Source: Anaerolineae bacterium
GTDB taxonomy: Bacteria > Chloroflexota > Anaerolineae > Aggregatilineales > Phototrophicaceae
Assembly (NCBI GenBank): GCA_025454525.1
Contig: JALOOG010000020.1
Span: 1-45,789, forward strand
Length of the DNA stretch: 45,789 nt
Direction of reading: 5' to 3'
Shown: positions 14,166 through 39,682 of the stretch, piece after piece
How positions within the stretch are numbered: the stretch's first letter is position 1
Layout: every line of letters starts with the position of its first letter
Position numbers and translations under genes: made by a program
The notes under the pieces: model-generated
The model's input: only the letters and a program-made list of their open reading frames with translations
Databases searched by the model: none
Told to the model about the DNA's origin: nothing

Positions 14166-15134
14166 TCACGACCTAGCCCCAGCACCTACTGCCGCGAATC
14201 GCACATCTTTCACGCCGTCCAATGTGCTTAATTCTCGTTGGATCGTTTCGGCATCTCGTGCCGTACACAGACAATGCACATTTGGACCCGCGTCTAAGGT
14301 GTAGCACACTTGTAACCCGTCTGCACGCCAACGCCGCACCGCGGACATCACCGTTAACGAGGCCGGTTGCCAATAGAACAGCGCCGGACGACTGGTCATC
14401 ATCACCGCGTGCATCAGATTACTATCGCGTTCTACCACCTCCGCGAAAGTATCAAAATCATGATCTAGGATTGCCGTTTTGCAAATCTGCAACCGGTCAT
14501 CGGCACCCGCGACTCGTGCCGATTGCAGATCACTTGTATTCGCGGAGGGATGCCCTTGTTTTGATCCAACCTCTTTATGTGCGCTACTCACGATTGCGAT
14601 CACATCCACCAAATCCCAATGATCCGGCGTAGCGATGCTTTCAGCATACGAGTCTTCATGCCGATCCGCCGCGTGCCATTCGACAAACCCCGTCGGGATT
14701 GACCGAGAAGCGGATCCCGATCCTAACCGTGCGATCGTGGTCATCTCGCGTTCGCTCACCTCACTTGCACCCGCTGCCGTGAACCCTGCGACGGTTAAGG
14801 CTGCAAATGAGGAAGCCGATGACGCGATCCCCGCCCCCATTGGGAAATTGTTTTCCGAGTCCACTTGGGCGTAACTCGTTAAGTTCAATCGTTTACGGAT
14901 CGCGTCTAAATGTTGCGATACCCGCATCAGCGGTTCACCCGTTTGATCTTGTCCGTTCAAAATCAAATGATCTTGTTTAAGCGTATCATCCCAGTGGACA
15001 GTCGTGCGCGTAAAGACCCCATTGAGGTTCATACTAAGTGAAGAATTGGACGGCAATCGCAACGTTTCATCGCGATTCCCCCAATATTTGATAAAAGCGA
15101 TGTTTGAATTTGCGTAGGCGGTAGCGTGCATCAT
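14166..15134 (-). CDS. mvaD: Phosphomevalonate/diphosphomevalonate decarboxylase (GHMP family)
   Basis: ATP-dependent decarboxylase giving isopentenyl phosphate (from phosphomevalonate) or IPP (from the diphosphate). GHMP fold with AYANSNIAFIKYWGNRDE at the start, the ATP loop MGAGIASSASSF, GSGSASRSIPTGFVEW (R144) and the catalytic Asp in CYTLDAGPN (D281). K16 matches yeast Lys18, but the position of yeast Lys22, near the terminal phosphate, is Asn20 (KYWGN instead of KYWGK). This, and the isopentenyl phosphate kinase nearby, favour phosphomevalonate as the substrate, as shown for Roseiflexus. ATGs at 15134 and 15131 are both usable. It is divergent from the ubiA-mvk-ipk operon. The symbol marks the family. 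Confidence 0.85.
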   Translation of the reverse strand: MMHATAYANSNIAFIKYWGNRDETLRLPSNSSLSMNLNGVFTRTTVHWDDTLKQDHLILNGQDQTGEPLMRVSQHLDAIRKRLNLTSYAQVDSENNFPMGAGIASSASSFAALTVAGFTAAGASEVSEREMTTIARLGSGSASRSIPTGFVEWHAADRHEDSYAESIATPDHWDLVDVIAIVSSAHKEVGSKQGHPSANTSDLQSARVAGADDRLQICKTAILDHDFDTFAEVVERDSNLMHAVMMTSRPALFYWQPASLTVMSAVRRWRADGLQVCYTLDAGPNVHCLCTARDAETIQRELSTLDGVKDVRFAAVGAGARS

Positions 15135-15179
15135 GTTTTTGTCTTTTGTCTTTCAATCGATTCTGCCAAACGCTAAGGA

Positions 15180-15207
15180 TTGTACCTTAAAACACATCGG
15201 ATATAAT
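15180..15207 (+). promoter_or_regulatory. Promoter of the ubiA-mvk-ipk operon
   Basis: TTGTAC (15180-15185), 16 bases, then the consensus TATAAT (15202-15207), about 40 bases before the ubiA start. Confidence 0.6.
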
Positions 15208-15247
15208 CGGTTATTTAAGACCACTTCAATCGATCTGGAGTCTCTCA

Positions 15248-16132
15248 TTGCGCGCACTTCTTGGGCTTTTGCGAACCATGCGGCCCAAACAATGGACAAA
15301 AAATCTGTTGTTTGTTTTTCCCGCGATTATTTTTGATGGGCAGCTTTTTAATCCGAACGCTTTTGGACGGGTTTTTCTCAGTTTTCTTCTGCTTTGTTTA
15401 GCTTCCGGCACCGTCTACATCATCAATGACCTTGTAGACATCGAAAGCGATCGCCAACACCCACGCAAGAAGAATCGCCCGTTGCCTTCGGGCCAACTTC
15501 CGATCCCATTAGCGATCGGCGCGGCGATTCTGTTTCCAATAGCGACCTTAGCCATCGCTTGGAGCTTTAGCCAACCGCTCGCTTTGATCTTGGCCTTGTA
15601 CTTGGCAATACAATTAGGTTATTCCTTTGTCTTTAAGCACCTTGCGATCATCGATGTGATGATCCTCACATCCGGTTTTGTATTACGGGTTGCGGCAGGA
15701 GTCGTTGTGATCAACGTGACCAATTTCTCTCCATGGCTCTATGTGTGTGCCGGCTTATTGGCGTTGATGTTAGCCGTCGGCAAACGTCGCCAAGAATTGA
15801 TCCTTTTGGGTGCAAATGCCAACAATGTTCGCAAAATTTACGAACATTACAATCTTGAGCTTTTAGATGAGATGCTCCGCATTTCGATGATCAGCACCTT
15901 GATCACCTATATCGTTTACACCATCGAAACCACCGCCCCCGCCTTACAAGGCAACAATTACGCTTTGTTAACCGTTCCATTTGTCATCTATGGTTTATTT
16001 CGTTATCTTTACCTCATCCATGTCAAAGGTGAGATCAGCCCGCCCGATGAAGTCTTGTTAAAAGATCGTCCCTTGCAACTAGCGTTGGTTTTATTCGCCT
16101 TAACCGTAGCAGTCATCATCTATGTGGTTTAG
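15248..16132 (+). CDS. UbiA-family prenyltransferase, phosphoribosyltransferase-like (DPPR synthase group)
   Basis: Membrane enzyme using a polyprenyl (di)phosphate. The first Asp-rich motif is NDLVDIESD (60-68) followed by RKKNRPLPSG, and the second region is YSFVFKHLAIIDVMILTSGFVLR. The N-terminal RPKQWTKNLLFVFPAI and the C-terminal PPDEVLLKDRPLQ are characteristic of decaprenyl-phosphate phosphoribosyltransferase-like members (mycobacterial Rv3806c group), which move a phosphoribosyl unit onto polyprenyl phosphate. About eight or nine membrane helices are visible. It starts with TTG, supported by GGAG seven bases upstream. It is the first gene before mevalonate kinase and isopentenyl phosphate kinase, so it may use their polyprenyl product. 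A quinone or heme prenyltransferase is less likely. Confidence 0.78.
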   Translation: MRALLGLLRTMRPKQWTKNLLFVFPAIIFDGQLFNPNAFGRVFLSFLLLCLASGTVYIINDLVDIESDRQHPRKKNRPLPSGQLPIPLAIGAAILFPIATLAIAWSFSQPLALILALYLAIQLGYSFVFKHLAIIDVMILTSGFVLRVAAGVVVINVTNFSPWLYVCAGLLALMLAVGKRRQELILLGANANNVRKIYEHYNLELLDEMLRISMISTLITYIVYTIETTAPALQGNNYALLTVPFVIYGLFRYLYLIHVKGEISPPDEVLLKDRPLQLALVLFALTVAVIIYVV

Positions 16133-16152
16133 CTTTAGTTTTAGGCCTGTGT

Positions 16153-17091
16153 ATGTCTTTTAAATTATTGACTTCAGCCCCTGCCAAGATCATCCTTTTT
16201 GGTGAACATGCCGTTGTTTATGGACAACCGGCCTTGGCCGTTCCCGTTTCACAATTACGCGCACAGGCCGAGATCATTCCTACCGGCCAACCGTTTCGAT
16301 TGGTCGCTTCTGATATTGATGAGACCTTACCGATCAATATTGACGATGAATTGGTAGACAATGCTTTAGCGCACATGGCCCGCCTGACTCTACAGACGTT
16401 GAAAGTTGCCCCCCCAAACGTATCGATCGTGGTGTCCTCACAAATTCCCTTGGCAAGTGGTTTAGGCAGTGGTGCGGCGGTTTCAGCAGCTTTAGGGCGT
16501 GCGATTGCCTTTGCTACCAATGGCACACTCTCCAATGAACAGCTCAACCGTTTAGTTTATGAAGTAGAGGGATTACATCACGGCACACCCAGCGGCGTTG
16601 ACAACACAGTGATCGTTTATGAGCGCCCGGTCTATTTCATCCGTGAACAAACCTTAGAGACCTTTTCCGTCGCTGAACCTGTGCATTTACTGATCGCTGA
16701 TACTGGCAAGGCCGCTTTAACCAAAGTTTCCGTAGGTGATGTTCGTCGGTTACATGAAACTGACCCGGCCTTCACCCAACCATTATTAGATGCGATCGGC
16801 CGCGTTGTTCAACAGGCCCGCACCGCCTTAGAATCGGGCGATCTTCCGCGTTTAGGTGCATTGGCCCTTGAAAACCATCATTTATTAGGGCAATTGACCG
16901 TTTCATCGCCGGAATTAGACACCTTTGTACAAACGGCCATAAATGCAGGCGCGTATGGTGCGAAATTATCCGGGGGAGGACGAGGTGGTAACATGATCGC
17001 CTTTGTCAATGAACAAACCGCCCCACAAGTAGAATCCGCACTTTATGCCGCGGGTGCGACCCGTATTATCCCGATCACGATTGAGCCTTAA
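16153..17091 (+). CDS. mvk: Mevalonate kinase
   Basis: Phosphorylates mevalonate to 5-phosphomevalonate with ATP. GHMP kinase with SAPAKIILFGEHAVVYG at the N-terminus (substrate Lys and the GEHAVVYG signature), the phosphate loop PLASGLGSGAAVS (about residue 97), HGTPSGVDNTV with the catalytic Asp (about residue 152), and KLSGGGRGGNMIAF near the C-terminus. The HGTPSG-D signature separates mevalonate kinase from galactokinase and phosphomevalonate kinase. 312 aa, normal length. It is placed 20 bases after ubiA and 14 before ipk, so it is operonic. Confidence 0.94.
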   Translation: MSFKLLTSAPAKIILFGEHAVVYGQPALAVPVSQLRAQAEIIPTGQPFRLVASDIDETLPINIDDELVDNALAHMARLTLQTLKVAPPNVSIVVSSQIPLASGLGSGAAVSAALGRAIAFATNGTLSNEQLNRLVYEVEGLHHGTPSGVDNTVIVYERPVYFIREQTLETFSVAEPVHLLIADTGKAALTKVSVGDVRRLHETDPAFTQPLLDAIGRVVQQARTALESGDLPRLGALALENHHLLGQLTVSSPELDTFVQTAINAGAYGAKLSGGGRGGNMIAFVNEQTAPQVESALYAAGATRIIPITIEP

Positions 17092-17105
17092 GAGGTATTT
17101 TCCCT

Positions 17106-17927
17106 GTGACTCTCACATTGATTAAATTAGGTGGTTCTTTAATCACCGATAAACGCACCGAAAAAAGTTTTCGTGCCGATCAGTCCCGTCAAATCGCTAC
17201 TGAGATCGCTGCCGCCTTAAGCGCCGATCCCACCCTACCGTTGATCATTGGACACGGTAGTGGATCATTCGGTCATGTCACCGCCCAAAAGTATGGTACG
17301 TTAAACGGTGTTCATACTCGTGAGCAATGGCGCGGTTTTGCCGAAGTGGCCACGGTGGCCGCCGAACTTAACTATCTAATGGCCGAAACGCTACAAGCGG
17401 CGGGTATCCCGATTTTGCGTGTTCAACCGTCCGCATCAGCTCAAAGTTACAACGGCGTGATTCAACGCATGGAGCTTTCGCCCATTCACGCCGCACTTGC
17501 GAATGGACTTGTCCCCTTAGTCTATGGGGATGTCTCTTTAGATGATGTGCGCGGTGGTACGATCATTTCAACAGAGGCTGTTTTTACCTACCTTGTCCAT
17601 CAATTACCCGTGAAACGGGTGTTATTACTAGGTGAAGTAGCAGGGGTTTATGATCAACAAGGTCAAGTGATCCCAGAGATTACCTTGAACAATGCCGAGC
17701 AATACCGGGCCTCGTTAGGCGGTTCAGAAGGTACTGATGTCACCGGAGGCATGTTGACCAAAGTCACTGATATGTTGGCCTTGGTAGAAAGATTCCCAGA
17801 GCTACAAGTTTATATCATTGACGGCACACGTCCCGAACCTTTACGCGCTTTGTTACAAGGGGGTGACTCAATTGGGACATTGATTCAAGCGGGCAATCAA
17901 ATCATCAACCGTGAGGATCTTACCTAA
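17106..17927 (+). CDS. ipk: Isopentenyl phosphate kinase
   Basis: Phosphorylates isopentenyl phosphate to IPP, the last step of the alternative mevalonate route. Amino-acid-kinase fold with LIKLGGSLITDK (N-terminal Lys and glycine loop), IIGHGSGSFGH with the substrate-recognising His57, VYGDVSLD and GTDVTGGML. The GSFGH histidine distinguishes IPK from fosfomycin kinase, uridylate kinase and acetylglutamate kinase. It starts with GTG after AAGAGG. It is encoded directly after mevalonate kinase; no phosphomevalonate kinase is in the window, which fits decarboxylation before the second phosphorylation. The stop lies 5 bases from that of the convergent ABC permease. Confidence 0.93.
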   Translation: MTLTLIKLGGSLITDKRTEKSFRADQSRQIATEIAAALSADPTLPLIIGHGSGSFGHVTAQKYGTLNGVHTREQWRGFAEVATVAAELNYLMAETLQAAGIPILRVQPSASAQSYNGVIQRMELSPIHAALANGLVPLVYGDVSLDDVRGGTIISTEAVFTYLVHQLPVKRVLLLGEVAGVYDQQGQVIPEITLNNAEQYRASLGGSEGTDVTGGMLTKVTDMLALVERFPELQVYIIDGTRPEPLRALLQGGDSIGTLIQAGNQIINREDLT

Positions 17928-35533: not shown

Positions 35534-35839
35534 TTAATTTCGCGTCAACACCTTACGAAATTTATACCCATACACGATCATGCCTTTTTCGCCCTCGGTG
35601 GTGAGTTTACGTGTTACCATTTCCACCCGATCGCCGATCTGAAGGCTCTCATTTTCATCTAAATCCGTGATCTGAGCGAGGATCATCGCCCCCTCATCCA
35701 ATTTCACCAGCGCCAGCATATAAGGCGCTTGTTCTTCAAAATCTTCTGGCGGTTCTTGCAACATCGTGAAGCTATACACTTCTCCGAGTCCCGAAAATGT
35801 GAATTTTTCTCGCCGTGTTTCTGTGGATGTTTGTGACAT
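35534..35839 (-). CDS. DUF35 OB-fold protein without zinc ribbon
   Basis: In Archaea the DUF35 protein bridges thiolase and HMG-CoA synthase in one complex. This 101-residue version keeps the OB-fold part very well (GLGEVYSFTMLQEPPEDF, QAPYMLALVKLDEGAMILAQ, GMIVYGYKFRKVL), but the N-terminal rubredoxin-like zinc ribbon with its four cysteines is absent; the protein contains no cysteine. A longer frame is not available: the upstream thiolase stop lies 8 bases before the ATG. The gene order HMG-CoA reductase, synthase, thiolase, DUF35 supports the role. Confidence 0.87.
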   Translation of the reverse strand: MSQTSTETRREKFTFSGLGEVYSFTMLQEPPEDFEEQAPYMLALVKLDEGAMILAQITDLDENESLQIGDRVEMVTRKLTTEGEKGMIVYGYKFRKVLTRN

Positions 35840-35847
35840 CTTCGCTT

Positions 35848-37011
35848 CTAACCTCCTACTTTCAGGATATGTGTGATCGCTGTGCTGGCCGCGCCGCCCA
35901 AATTTTGGATCGCCGCGATTTTAGCGTTCGGGACTTGGTTTTTACCCGCCCGTCCCGTAAGTTGGAGATAGGCTTCGAGTGCCTGATACACCCCCGTTGC
36001 ACCGACCGGGTTTCCACGACTTTTTAGACCCCCGAATGTGCAGATCGGGATCGATCCCTTCAATCCCAATGCTTCGCCCGCATTATTCGCCAGTGTCCAA
36101 CCCTCACCACGCCCTGCGAATCCGGTCGCTTCTAGCGTGAGTGCGCTGAAGATCGTATAAGCGTCATGCAATTCAAACAGATCAATTTCGGCAGTGGTCA
36201 CTCCGGCTTGTTGATAAGCCCGATACGCCGACTCATCGGCTGCCCGGAAATATAACAGATCTTCACGGTCTTGTAACGCGAGGCTATCTGTCCCTACCGC
36301 GCTTCCCACGATCATCACCGGCACATCCGTCAGATCCGCTGCCCGCTCCGGGGTAGTTAAGATCACCGCCGCCGCACCATCTGCATCCGGCGCACCGTCA
36401 AACAAGTTTACCGGATCAGAGATCATCGATGCCCGTGCATACCCACCCGGTTTGATCAGGTTACGGAACATGGCGCTTTCATTGACATTGCCGTTCCGAT
36501 GTGCGTTGATCGTAAAGCCTTCAAACACCCCTAAACCGAGTTGATATTCGTGCATATACCGCCGCATGATCATCGCCGCCAACGCGGTCAATGTTGCGCC
36601 ATGCACCGACTCATAATCCGCGTCAAGGCTCACACTCCGCCCTTTAACCCGATTGCTACCGATCGCATCCGTCGATTTTTCCACACCCAGCACGATCGCT
36701 GTATCGATCAGGCCCGATGCGATCGCCATGTAGCCGGTACGCAAAGCGGCAGCTCCAGACGCATCACCGGATTCAACACAATAGGCTTCGATCCCTTTCA
36801 GGCCCGCGTAATCCGCGATCAGCGCGCCCAATTGTGCTTGACTACTAAACGTAGAGCCATACGCATTTCCCACGTACATTGCATCTACCGTACTAAGTTG
36901 CACGCTTTGTAACGCCGCTTGGATCGCCTCCGCGCCCAACATCCGTAAACTGCTTTGCCAATGTTCGCCAACCGGAGTCGCCCCGACTCCGACAATCGCT
37001 ACTTCACGCAT
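35848..37011 (-). CDS. Thiolase-fold protein of the archaeal HMG-CoA-complex type, catalytic residues replaced
   Basis: 387 aa, SCP-x/archaeal acetoacetyl-CoA thiolase family by overall sequence (start EVAIVGVGATPVG; FELHDAYTIFSALTLEATGF; FGGLKSRGNPVGATGVYQ). Relatives make acetoacetyl-CoA from two acetyl-CoA. Two key positions differ: the nucleophilic Cys of the C-A-S-G motif is Asp83 (VESGDASGAAALR) and the His of the G-H-P motif is Asn334 (RGNP). His282 of HDA is kept, and a Cys lies five residues before Asp83 (C78). It may be a non-condensing scaffold that holds acetoacetyl-CoA for the synthase. It is followed 8 bases later by its DUF35 partner. Confidence 0.85.
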   Translation of the reverse strand: MREVAIVGVGATPVGEHWQSSLRMLGAEAIQAALQSVQLSTVDAMYVGNAYGSTFSSQAQLGALIADYAGLKGIEAYCVESGDASGAAALRTGYMAIASGLIDTAIVLGVEKSTDAIGSNRVKGRSVSLDADYESVHGATLTALAAMIMRRYMHEYQLGLGVFEGFTINAHRNGNVNESAMFRNLIKPGGYARASMISDPVNLFDGAPDADGAAAVILTTPERAADLTDVPVMIVGSAVGTDSLALQDREDLLYFRAADESAYRAYQQAGVTTAEIDLFELHDAYTIFSALTLEATGFAGRGEGWTLANNAGEALGLKGSIPICTFGGLKSRGNPVGATGVYQALEAYLQLTGRAGKNQVPNAKIAAIQNLGGAASTAITHILKVGG

Positions 37012-37307: not shown

Positions 37308-38390
37308 TTAATCCTTCAACTTACCGCGATAACGGCTATAAGTCGCATAATCGATCATCGTGCGACGGCTAATATAATCCCGTGTTTTCGGCGCACGCCC
37401 CGGCACATCTTGAATCCGATCCGTAACCACAATATCAAACGAATCCGACCCCGCCCCACTACCATAACTCACCATCAAGATCCGATCCCCCGGTTTCGCG
37501 ATGTCCAACACCGCTGTAAGACCCAACATACACGATCCAGAGTACACATTGCCGATCTCACCCGCTAACAGACCTGTTTTGATCTGTTCATCGTTGAATC
37601 CCAGCATTTGTGCCGCCCGTGACGGAAATTTGACGTTCGGTTGATGAAACACGCCGTAGGTGTAATCTTTTGCCGTTGTTCCCATCATCTCCATCAGCGC
37701 TTGCGCCGATGACAAGGTATGATTGAAATAGGCCGGCTCACCCGTGAAGCGATCCCCATGACTCGGATAGGTCTCACCTGACCGCCGCCAAAAATCCGGT
37801 GTATCAGTCACAAAGCTATAACTACCCTGATACACCGCGCACGCTTCTTCTGCCGGCCCGATGATAAACGCCGCCCCACCAGATGCCGCCGTGTATTCCA
37901 GCGCATCCCCCGGGCGACCTTGTGCTGTGTCCATCCCAATACTGAGCGTATACCGCCCCATGCCACTTCCCACGATCCCGATCGAGGCTTGTACCGCTTC
38001 TGTACCCGCTTTACACGCAAATTCCCAATCAGCCGCTTGAATATTCGGCGAGGCACCAATACTTTCCGCGACGATCGTGCTAGTCGGTTTGACCGCGTAA
38101 GGATGACTTTCACTCCCCACCCAAACCGCCCGAATTTCCAACGGATCAATTTGAGCGCGGGCCAAGGCATTGCGCGCCGCTTCGATCGACATCGTGATCA
38201 CATCTTCATCCACACCCGCGACCGCTTTTTCTATGATCGGACTCCCGCCTAATCCTTTTGTCCATACTCGGGCCACTTCTTTCCCCGGTAACCGATAGCG
38301 TGGCACATAAGCCCCATATCCCACGATCCCCACTTGCCGATCAGGACGCATCAGCAGGGAATTTGACTTTAAACCGTAATCTTGACTCAT
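37308..38390 (-). CDS. hmgcs: Hydroxymethylglutaryl-CoA synthase (archaeal type)
   Basis: Condenses acetyl-CoA with acetoacetyl-CoA to HMG-CoA, entry to the mevalonate route. Thiolase-like fold with catalytic Cys126 in [11 protein letters not shown], His249 in [11 protein letters not shown], and Glu in the [15 protein letters not shown] segment. [15 protein letters not shown], the conserved opening, follows an 18-residue leader. The archaeal subgroup lacks the eukaryotic C-terminal extension, as here (360 aa). Its ATG overlaps the HMG-CoA reductase stop (ATGA), so the two are co-translated. All catalytic residues are present, in contrast to the thiolase downstream. Confidence 0.93.
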
Positions 38391-39682
38391 CCGCTTTGTT
38401 CTCCTTGAGCTACTAAAGTTTTTGCGTACTCTAATCGGATATTATTCGCTTTGATCATCGCTTCAACCACACGGCCGATCATTTCTGGAGATGCACCCGC
38501 GGCAATCGCTAATTGTCTGGCGTGCATCCGCATATGACCATGTTGAATCCCTGTGGTTGCCAAGGCGCGGATCGCCGCTAAATTTTGTGCCAATCCTACC
38601 GCCGCGATCACCTCACTCAATTCTCGCGCAGCGTCGATTCCTAAAATTTTCATCGCCAGTTGAGCGGTTGGATGTACCCGTGTCGCACCGCCCACCGTTC
38701 CAATCGCCATCGGCAATTCGATTCGCCCTTGGAGATCCCCGTTTTCGGTTTTACGCCATTGTGTTAAGCTGGTGTAATGTCCATGACGTGCGGCGTAAGC
38801 ATGTGCGCCCGCTTCAATGGCCCGCCAATCGTTACCCGTGGCCATCACCACCGCGTCAATCCCGTTCATGATCCCTTTGTTGTGTGTGGTCGCACGATAC
38901 GGATCACATTCTGCGAAAACACTCGCTTCAACAATTGAATCCACCACCTGCACGCCAGTGAGATTTTCTTTTTCTTGCGCTAATTCCCCTGCTGGCACGA
39001 TTCCTTCAGCATAAGCTTTACGCCGATCGCTGAGATTGCTCAAGATCTTGAGATTAACCCGTCCGCTGGTGAGTGTTTCGATCTCAGGCGCGATATGTTC
39101 AACGGCGGTGTTGATCGCATTCGCACCCATCGCATCGCGAGTATCATATAACAGGTGTACGATCAACAAATCTCCGTTTAACGTATTTGGAATCACCCGT
39201 GTTTCGATTCCCCGCGCCCCCCCACCTCGTTTGACAATGCTTCCTGCGATCGCGTCAACCATGGCCATCAACTGTTTTTCAGCGGTTTTAATTCGTTCGA
39301 TCGCCTTGTTTATATCCGGCACATCCAATATCTGAATCTGCCCGATCATAATCGGTTCATCGCTCCGGGTCGTAAATCCCCCACCAGCACGGATCAATTT
39401 CGCTGCGTTACTTGCCGCCGCCACCACCGACGGTTCTTCGATCACCATCGGAATCAGATAATCTTTTCCATTGATCAAGAAGTTAGTGGCGATTCCAAAT
39501 GGCAAACTATAGATCCCGATCACATTCTCGATCATCGGATCTGCTTGTGCTGTTGTCAGCCCCTGATCCAGAGTTTGATCCAACTCCGCCGGGTCATTCA
39601 TCCAGCTTTTGAGGATCTCACGCCGTTCTTTGAGGCTACGTTTGTAGAACTTGCTAATTTGGGAGTTTTTATCTGTAGTCAT
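38387..39682 (-). CDS. mvaA: Hydroxymethylglutaryl-CoA reductase, class II (degradative-type sequence)
   Basis: Reduces HMG-CoA to mevalonate with two NAD(P)H. The bacterial class II features are clear: [18 protein letters not shown] at the N-terminus, catalytic Glu in [15 protein letters not shown] (82/83), K269 in [14 protein letters not shown], Asp in [17 protein letters not shown] and the flexible C-terminal flap with [11 protein letters not shown]. 431 aa. Class II enzymes work in both directions, but here the place next to HMG-CoA synthase indicates biosynthesis. It is the first gene of the operon; the 60 bases to the divergent deacetylase gene must hold its promoter. Confidence 0.94.

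Follow-up and report, generated by a model that had tools for sequence, protein, structure and literature searches.

A thiolase homologue without its nucleophilic cysteine beside HMG-CoA synthase in Chloroflexota: a probable pseudoenzyme subunit

The archaeal acetoacetyl-CoA thiolase is described in PMC12329534 and PMC6392133 as part of a complex in which a DUF35 protein ties thiolase and HMG-CoA synthase together and in which a CoA site is shared. A thiolase gene that resides next to HMG-CoA synthase in an Anaerolineae bacterium (Chloroflexota), while lacking the codons for two key active site residues, hence raises the question of which function such a protein may fulfil. The gene is located within a stretch of 45,789 nucleotides (contig JALOOG010000020.1 of assembly GCA_025454525.1, positions 1 to 45,789), hereafter referred to as the window. 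Upstream of it and on the same strand, the genes encoding HMG-CoA synthase and HMG-CoA reductase were identified, with a gap of 296 bases between synthase and thiolase, and a gene encoding a DUF35 OB-fold protein follows downstream after 8 bases (Table 1). The thiolase reading frame was found to be intact, with zero internal stop codons. HMMER alignment revealed Asp83 to be positioned opposite the Cys of the VEAACASG motif in the structures 7yvy and 6esq and Asn334 to align with the His of GHP (7yvy) or GHA (6esq), while the His of the HDxF motif is present as His282 of HDAY (residues 282-285) and aligns with its counterpart in both structures. Thus the original prediction, which had assigned both replacements, the intact frame and the retained His282, agrees with the re-read codons and with both alignments.

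Table 1. Features of the window considered in this work, with coordinates, strand and basis of assignment.
Feature	Coordinates	Strand	Basis
Archaeal-type thiolase homologue without catalytic Cys and GHP His (putative pseudothiolase), 387 aa	35848..37011	-	ORF, alignment, predicted fold
Codon 83, GAT (Asp), nucleophile position	36763..36765	-	DNA re-read and HMMER alignment
Codon 334, AAC (Asn), GHP His position	36010..36012	-	DNA re-read and HMMER alignment
Codon 282, His of HDAY, kept	36166..36168	-	Sequence and alignment
DUF35 OB-fold half alone (PF01796), 101 aa, no zinc ribbon	35534..35839	-	Pfam
Archaeal-type HMG-CoA synthase, Cys126 kept, Glu94 and His249 also conserved	37308..38390	-	TIGR00748, 542.5 bits (cut-off 353.35)
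HMG-CoA reductase	38387..39682	-	TIGR00532, 411.9 bits (cut-off 259.95)
(Di)phosphomevalonate decarboxylase	14166..15134	-	TIGR01240, over cut-off
Mevalonate kinase	16153..17091	+	TIGR00549, over cut-off
Isopentenyl phosphate kinase (IPK)	17106..17927	+	NF040647, over cut-off

Pfam and NCBIfam place the protein among the archaeal-type thiolases, whereby the thiolase C-terminal domain (PF22691) was matched with 141.4 bits and the scores for NF004720 (382.6 bits) and NF053570 (308.3 bits) were found to lie under the curated cut-offs of 420 and 600, respectively. Structure prediction with AlphaFold2 yielded a best model with a pLDDT of 91.5, the remaining four of the five models ranging from 75.7 to 80.7, and comparison of this best model with solved structures identified 7yvy as top match, followed by 6et9 and 6esq.

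A relative of the window protein was found in 56 of 61 genomes, i.e., the own genome and 60 genomes of the same family and order. In a close group, position 83 is Asp or Glu except for a single Gly (L030) and position 334 is mostly Asn, and a second, more distant group possesses Cys and His, with no HMG-CoA synthase in the stretches fetched for it. Two further observations concern thiolases of other kinds. A Cys/His paralogue of the operon thiolase (L045-L063), which has no HMG-CoA synthase nearby in the stretches fetched, was not found in the window's own genome, and a distant thiolase-like family (L068-L075) carries YDSYSG and GAP motifs together with Gly at the nucleophile position and might, as guessed from its motif, represent a Ltp2/Sal-like aldolase. 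From a scan across species genomes, 376 related stretches were obtained, and each of the best 80 of these 376, all from records titled as Chloroflexota groups, contains HMG-CoA synthase, either whole or clipped by the contig end.

A census of the phylum was queried with HMG-CoA synthase, not with the thiolase, and covered 251 genomes of at least 85% completeness, the own genome included. HMG-CoA synthase was identified in 56 of these (E <1e-100, the next match being 3e-48), and the neighbouring thiolase was readable in 55, the contig of G290 ending behind the synthase. The nucleophilic Cys is absent from 46 of the 55 thiolases, being replaced by Gly (39), Asp (5), Glu (1) or Gln (1), while Cys and His are kept in nine (G258, G279, G244, G236, G188, G140, G204, G092, G306). 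At the second position, 334, the Cys-less thiolases of the census possess Asp, Phe, Asn, His or Tyr, and most members of other classes (families f28, f38 and f66) have Ser or Thr in place of the HDxF His. In a set of 146 distinct synthase-near thiolase genes, position 83 is occupied by D (73), G (40), E (22), C (10) or Q (1), the Cys thus being lost in 136; relatives of the window protein are over-represented in this set, many of its genes having been fetched by likeness to the window protein, which renders the 46 of 55 the less biased figure. The catalytic Cys of HMG-CoA synthase is kept in all 145 distinct sequences, and both totals refer to distinct sequences, some loci representing the same genome twice (e.g., L077 and L115). 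The 146-gene set excludes thiolase matches of at most 200 bits and rows whose core contains more than 80 gaps; residue 334 of L065 is unreliable in it, as this sequence is frame-shifted at its 3' end, and one of the ten Cys rows, from L133, apparently represents a paralogue encoded immediately upstream of the operon rather than the operon thiolase. Because 136 of 146 distinct genes lack the Cys, its loss is not an isolated read error. What had originally been described for one genome is confirmed by these alignments to be much more widespread, reaching across the phylum.

Purifying selection is documented by dN/dS values of 0.03-0.29 in all 35 close pairs of Cys-less sequences (35 of the 42 pairs listed), which is of the same order as found for the synthase, whereby dS exceeds 1 for some of the pairs and a few genomes contribute to two pairs each. 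Conservation at 90% in both the Cys (17 rows) and the Cys-less (74 rows) sets was found for 61 alignment columns, while 19 columns conserved in the Cys/His sequences are lost in the Cys-less set (83, 141, 145, 334 and others); at the thresholds used, and with 17 versus 74 rows, no column was found to be newly fixed across the whole Cys-less set. The thiolase tree was based on 91 of 196 rows remaining after identity thinning, with L064 and L065 left out and the active-site columns omitted, and the residue itself requires 16 changes on it. Because the Cys/non-Cys label requires one change on this tree (a 74-row group with a support of 94, not starred) but three on the HMG-CoA synthase tree, for which a single origin is not rejected (AU p 0.28), a single ancient loss of the Cys appears likely but is not proven. 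A transfer of the operon is possible.

Thiolase and synthase also occur together. The thiolase, DUF35 and HMG-CoA synthase genes lie side by side in the window, an arrangement conserved in many relatives, and in each of the 56 synthase genomes the window thiolase finds a match with an E-value of at most 1.5e-70, the best match of some possibly being a Cys/His paralogue. Among the 195 synthase-less genomes, eight match the thiolase at 1e-55 or better, one at 1.1e-70 and seven at 3.6e-57 to 1.2e-65. As the match of one genome without synthase (G071) is no worse than the weakest among the 56, the E-value does not split the groups cleanly. In two class-level genomes without synthase (G180 and G292), the thiolase is absent as well at the 1e-55 threshold. 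Within the same order, members of genus g31 in family f8 (L039, L040, L103, L107) possess a pseudothiolase which does not adjoin HMG-CoA synthase, the latter being encoded on another contig.

As for the origin of acetoacetyl-CoA, the own genome encodes three further thiolases, all over the TIGR01930 cut-off, with Cys, NEAF, GHP and C-terminal C-x-G motifs, which we take to be the catalytic motifs of ordinary thiolases. A second catalytic thiolase, for which the original prediction had proposed to search the genome, is therefore represented by three candidates. Among the synthase genomes, 53 of 56 yield a PF00108 match at E 1e-40, and the three lacking it (G092, G188, G279) all possess Cys and His in the operon thiolase, while ordinary thiolases are also present in six of the nine Cys/His genomes. 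Absence of an ordinary thiolase was found to go with a Cys/His operon thiolase at a Fisher p of 0.003 by genome (55 genomes, kinship ignored) and of 0.06 by family, an association which is suggestive only, because the genomes are not independent.

The product of the synthase is likely to be required by the cell. The decarboxylase, mevalonate kinase and IPK genes of the window are parts of the alternative mevalonate route that PMC3857490 describes for Chloroflexi. A prenyltransferase, recognized by a decaprenyl-phosphate phosphoribosyltransferase model, was also noted among them (14166-17927). A search for DXR with PF02670, which leaves out DXR-like type II enzymes, yielded no match in the window's genome, while 10 of 14 control genomes do match. 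Because mevalonate genes are present and no DXR match was obtained, the isoprenoids of the organism should depend on the HMG-CoA synthase of the operon.

The DUF35 protein, by which the archaeal complex is tied together, is altered in the window as well, a feature that adds to the initial observation. Its OB part is encoded alone, the short ribbon ORF is missing, and none of the three frames of that strand revealed a zinc-ribbon ORF in the synthase-thiolase gap. A DUF35 census with profiles built in this analysis revealed a full-length protein with a four-Cys ribbon in all eight Cys/His operons for which a DUF35 gene was found. Among 95 distinct cases with Asp or Glu at position 83, a short ribbon-like ORF together with an OB ORF was found in 71, one ORF in 7 and none in range in 17, and the short ribbon-like ORF contains zero or one Cys in 64 of the 71. 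Among 40 Gly cases, one full-length ORF was found in 31 and none in nine; as 16 of these 31 have only one or two Cys, the zinc Cys have been lost outside the window's order as well. In the loci considered here (L077-L107, L108-L187), most members of this order possess two separate DUF35 ORFs downstream of the thiolase, one ribbon-like and usually devoid of the zinc Cys and the other encoding the OB part, and DUF35 is a single ORF elsewhere in the phylum sample, frequently Cys-poor as well. An order-level relative (L044) kept a separate ribbon ORF matching PF12172, and the one Cys-free short ORF that was tested is not recognized by Pfam. Given their shared start (HWRL..RY...G), their place and the profiles built here, the Cys-free short ORFs probably descend from the zinc ribbon. 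Elsewhere in the own genome, five ORFs of about 60 amino acids with an MQISRHWRL-like start were noted on contigs C129, C174 and C49 (L258-L262), two neighbouring pairs among them, which are related to the Cys-poor ribbon-like ORF that is present in the operons of related genomes and absent from the window operon.

With an estimated probability of about 0.72, the Cys-less thiolase of Chloroflexota is best explained as a pseudoenzyme subunit of the HMG-CoA synthase complex, with acetoacetyl-CoA being provided by a separate thiolase. This reading assumes that thiolase catalysis was lost from an archaeal-type acetoacetyl-CoA thiolase prior to the diversification of the window's lineage, and that the resulting pseudothiolase was kept as a protein folding together with HMG-CoA synthase in a physical complex, where it probably completes or stabilizes the synthase, which would need it, through the DUF35 OB protein. 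One of the cell's ordinary thiolases would form acetoacetyl-CoA, which would reach the synthase from solution and be converted by it into HMG-CoA for the mevalonate pathway. The variety of residues at position 83 in the census is what a site relieved of its former role would be expected to show. The proposal that a dead thiolase may act as structural partner, with acetoacetyl-CoA coming from outside, gains indirect support from a conserved, selected and Cys-less protein, from the kept synthase Cys and from the ordinary thiolases encoded elsewhere, but the role of a channel partner, which had been proposed alongside, gains no such support, because acetoacetyl-CoA made elsewhere would leave the thiolase-to-synthase channel of the archaeal complex without a source.

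Within the window's clade (41 rows), the site is far less variable, with Asp or Glu at position 83 in 40, Asn334 in 37 and His282 in 40 of the 41 rows, and with Asn184 and Phe326 fixed, both of which are rare or absent in the Cys/His sequences. This could be explained by assuming a neofunctionalized enzyme in the window's order, in which Asp/Glu83, His282 and Asn334 form a new acid-base site acting on a CoA ester as lyase, aldolase or hydrolase, and Ltp2 and Sal, according to PMC12329534, are enzymes with DUF35-linked thiolase folds that lack the nucleophilic Cys. Against this, the same synthase-side gene in sister lineages has Gly, Gln and other pairs, often with Ser or Thr for His282, the Cys-less group as a whole shows no newly fixed column, and none of the neighbouring genes was seen to point to another CoA substrate. 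An aldolase of the Ltp2/Sal type in particular uses YDHF or YDCY, a motif which is absent here. Neofunctionalization is hence considered unlikely, even though the near-invariant acid hints at some room for a working pocket in the window's order. Doubtful as well, and put forward as a speculation, is a combination of both ideas, in which an ancient channelling complex would have been dismantled across Chloroflexota with its parts retained, the thiolase turning into an obligate non-catalytic scaffold or CoA-site regulator of the synthase; in the window's order, this subunit would then have acquired a fixed Asp/Glu-His-Asn pocket serving a new function at the shared CoA site, along with a splitting of DUF35 and the loss of its zinc.

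That the protein is still a thiolase, using Cys78 or the Asp itself as alternative nucleophile, is highly improbable: Cys78 is indeed close to the site, but it resides five residues upstream and does not align with the nucleophile, as would have spoken against the original prediction, its column is not conserved among the relatives (T, S, A, R and others), many relatives have Gly in place of the acid, and the GHP His is gone too. An assembly error or a decaying pseudogene, conceivable for an assembly of 230 contigs with 97% completeness and 2.5% contamination, can practically be dismissed, since the frame is open, the same residues recur in many independent assemblies and dN/dS is well below 1 in the related pairs compared.

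If the thiolase homologue serves as a pseudoenzyme subunit, two possible thiolase roles, i.e., making acetoacetyl-CoA and building the CoA site of the synthase, would be separated in nature. Should the dead subunit still be required, channelling would not be the only reason for the complex to exist, and 'acetyl-CoA acetyltransferase' would be the wrong name in much of the phylum's mevalonate users. The nine of 55 sampled genomes with Cys and His beside the synthase offer a ready comparison. An abstract-level literature search, with subscription journals mostly outside its reach, found no description of a thiolase lacking the Cys next to HMG-CoA synthase in Chloroflexota, and the word thiolase is absent from PMC11052028, which deals with isoprenoid evolution.

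Among known systems, the acetoacetyl-CoA thiolase/DUF35/HMG-CoA synthase complex of Methanothermococcus thermolithotrophicus (6ESQ, 6ET9) is alike in its thiolase fold (TM 0.93-0.94 for the predicted model), in the adjoining HMG-CoA synthase with catalytic Cys and in the DUF35 OB gene. It differs in that the window thiolase is devoid of the nucleophilic Cys and the GHP-type His and in that DUF35 is cut to its OB half, and channelling from an own thiolase step would not be expected for the window system. The thiolase PFC_04095 of Pyrococcus furiosus (7YVY) is the closest solved protein in sequence and fold (E 1.3e-98, 46% identity) and shares the motif in the form HDAF, but keeps both the Cys and the GHP His. 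The aldolases Ltp2-ChsH2(DUF35) and Sal-Shy(DUF35) likewise combine a thiolase fold devoid of the nucleophilic Cys with a DUF35 partner, yet theirs are the YDHF or YDCY residues, as stated in PMC12329534, whereas the window protein possesses HDAY and mevalonate genes as neighbours. Finally, the PhlACB acylase of Pseudomonas protegens comprises, according to PMC6392133, a synthase-like PhlA devoid of Cys and Glu and an active thiolase-like PhlC, with the complex being needed. Both systems combine a thiolase fold, a synthase fold and DUF35, with one condensing subunit lacking catalytic residues, but the roles appear reversed, as the inert subunit is the synthase-like PhlA in PhlACB and would be the thiolase homologue in the Chloroflexota system.
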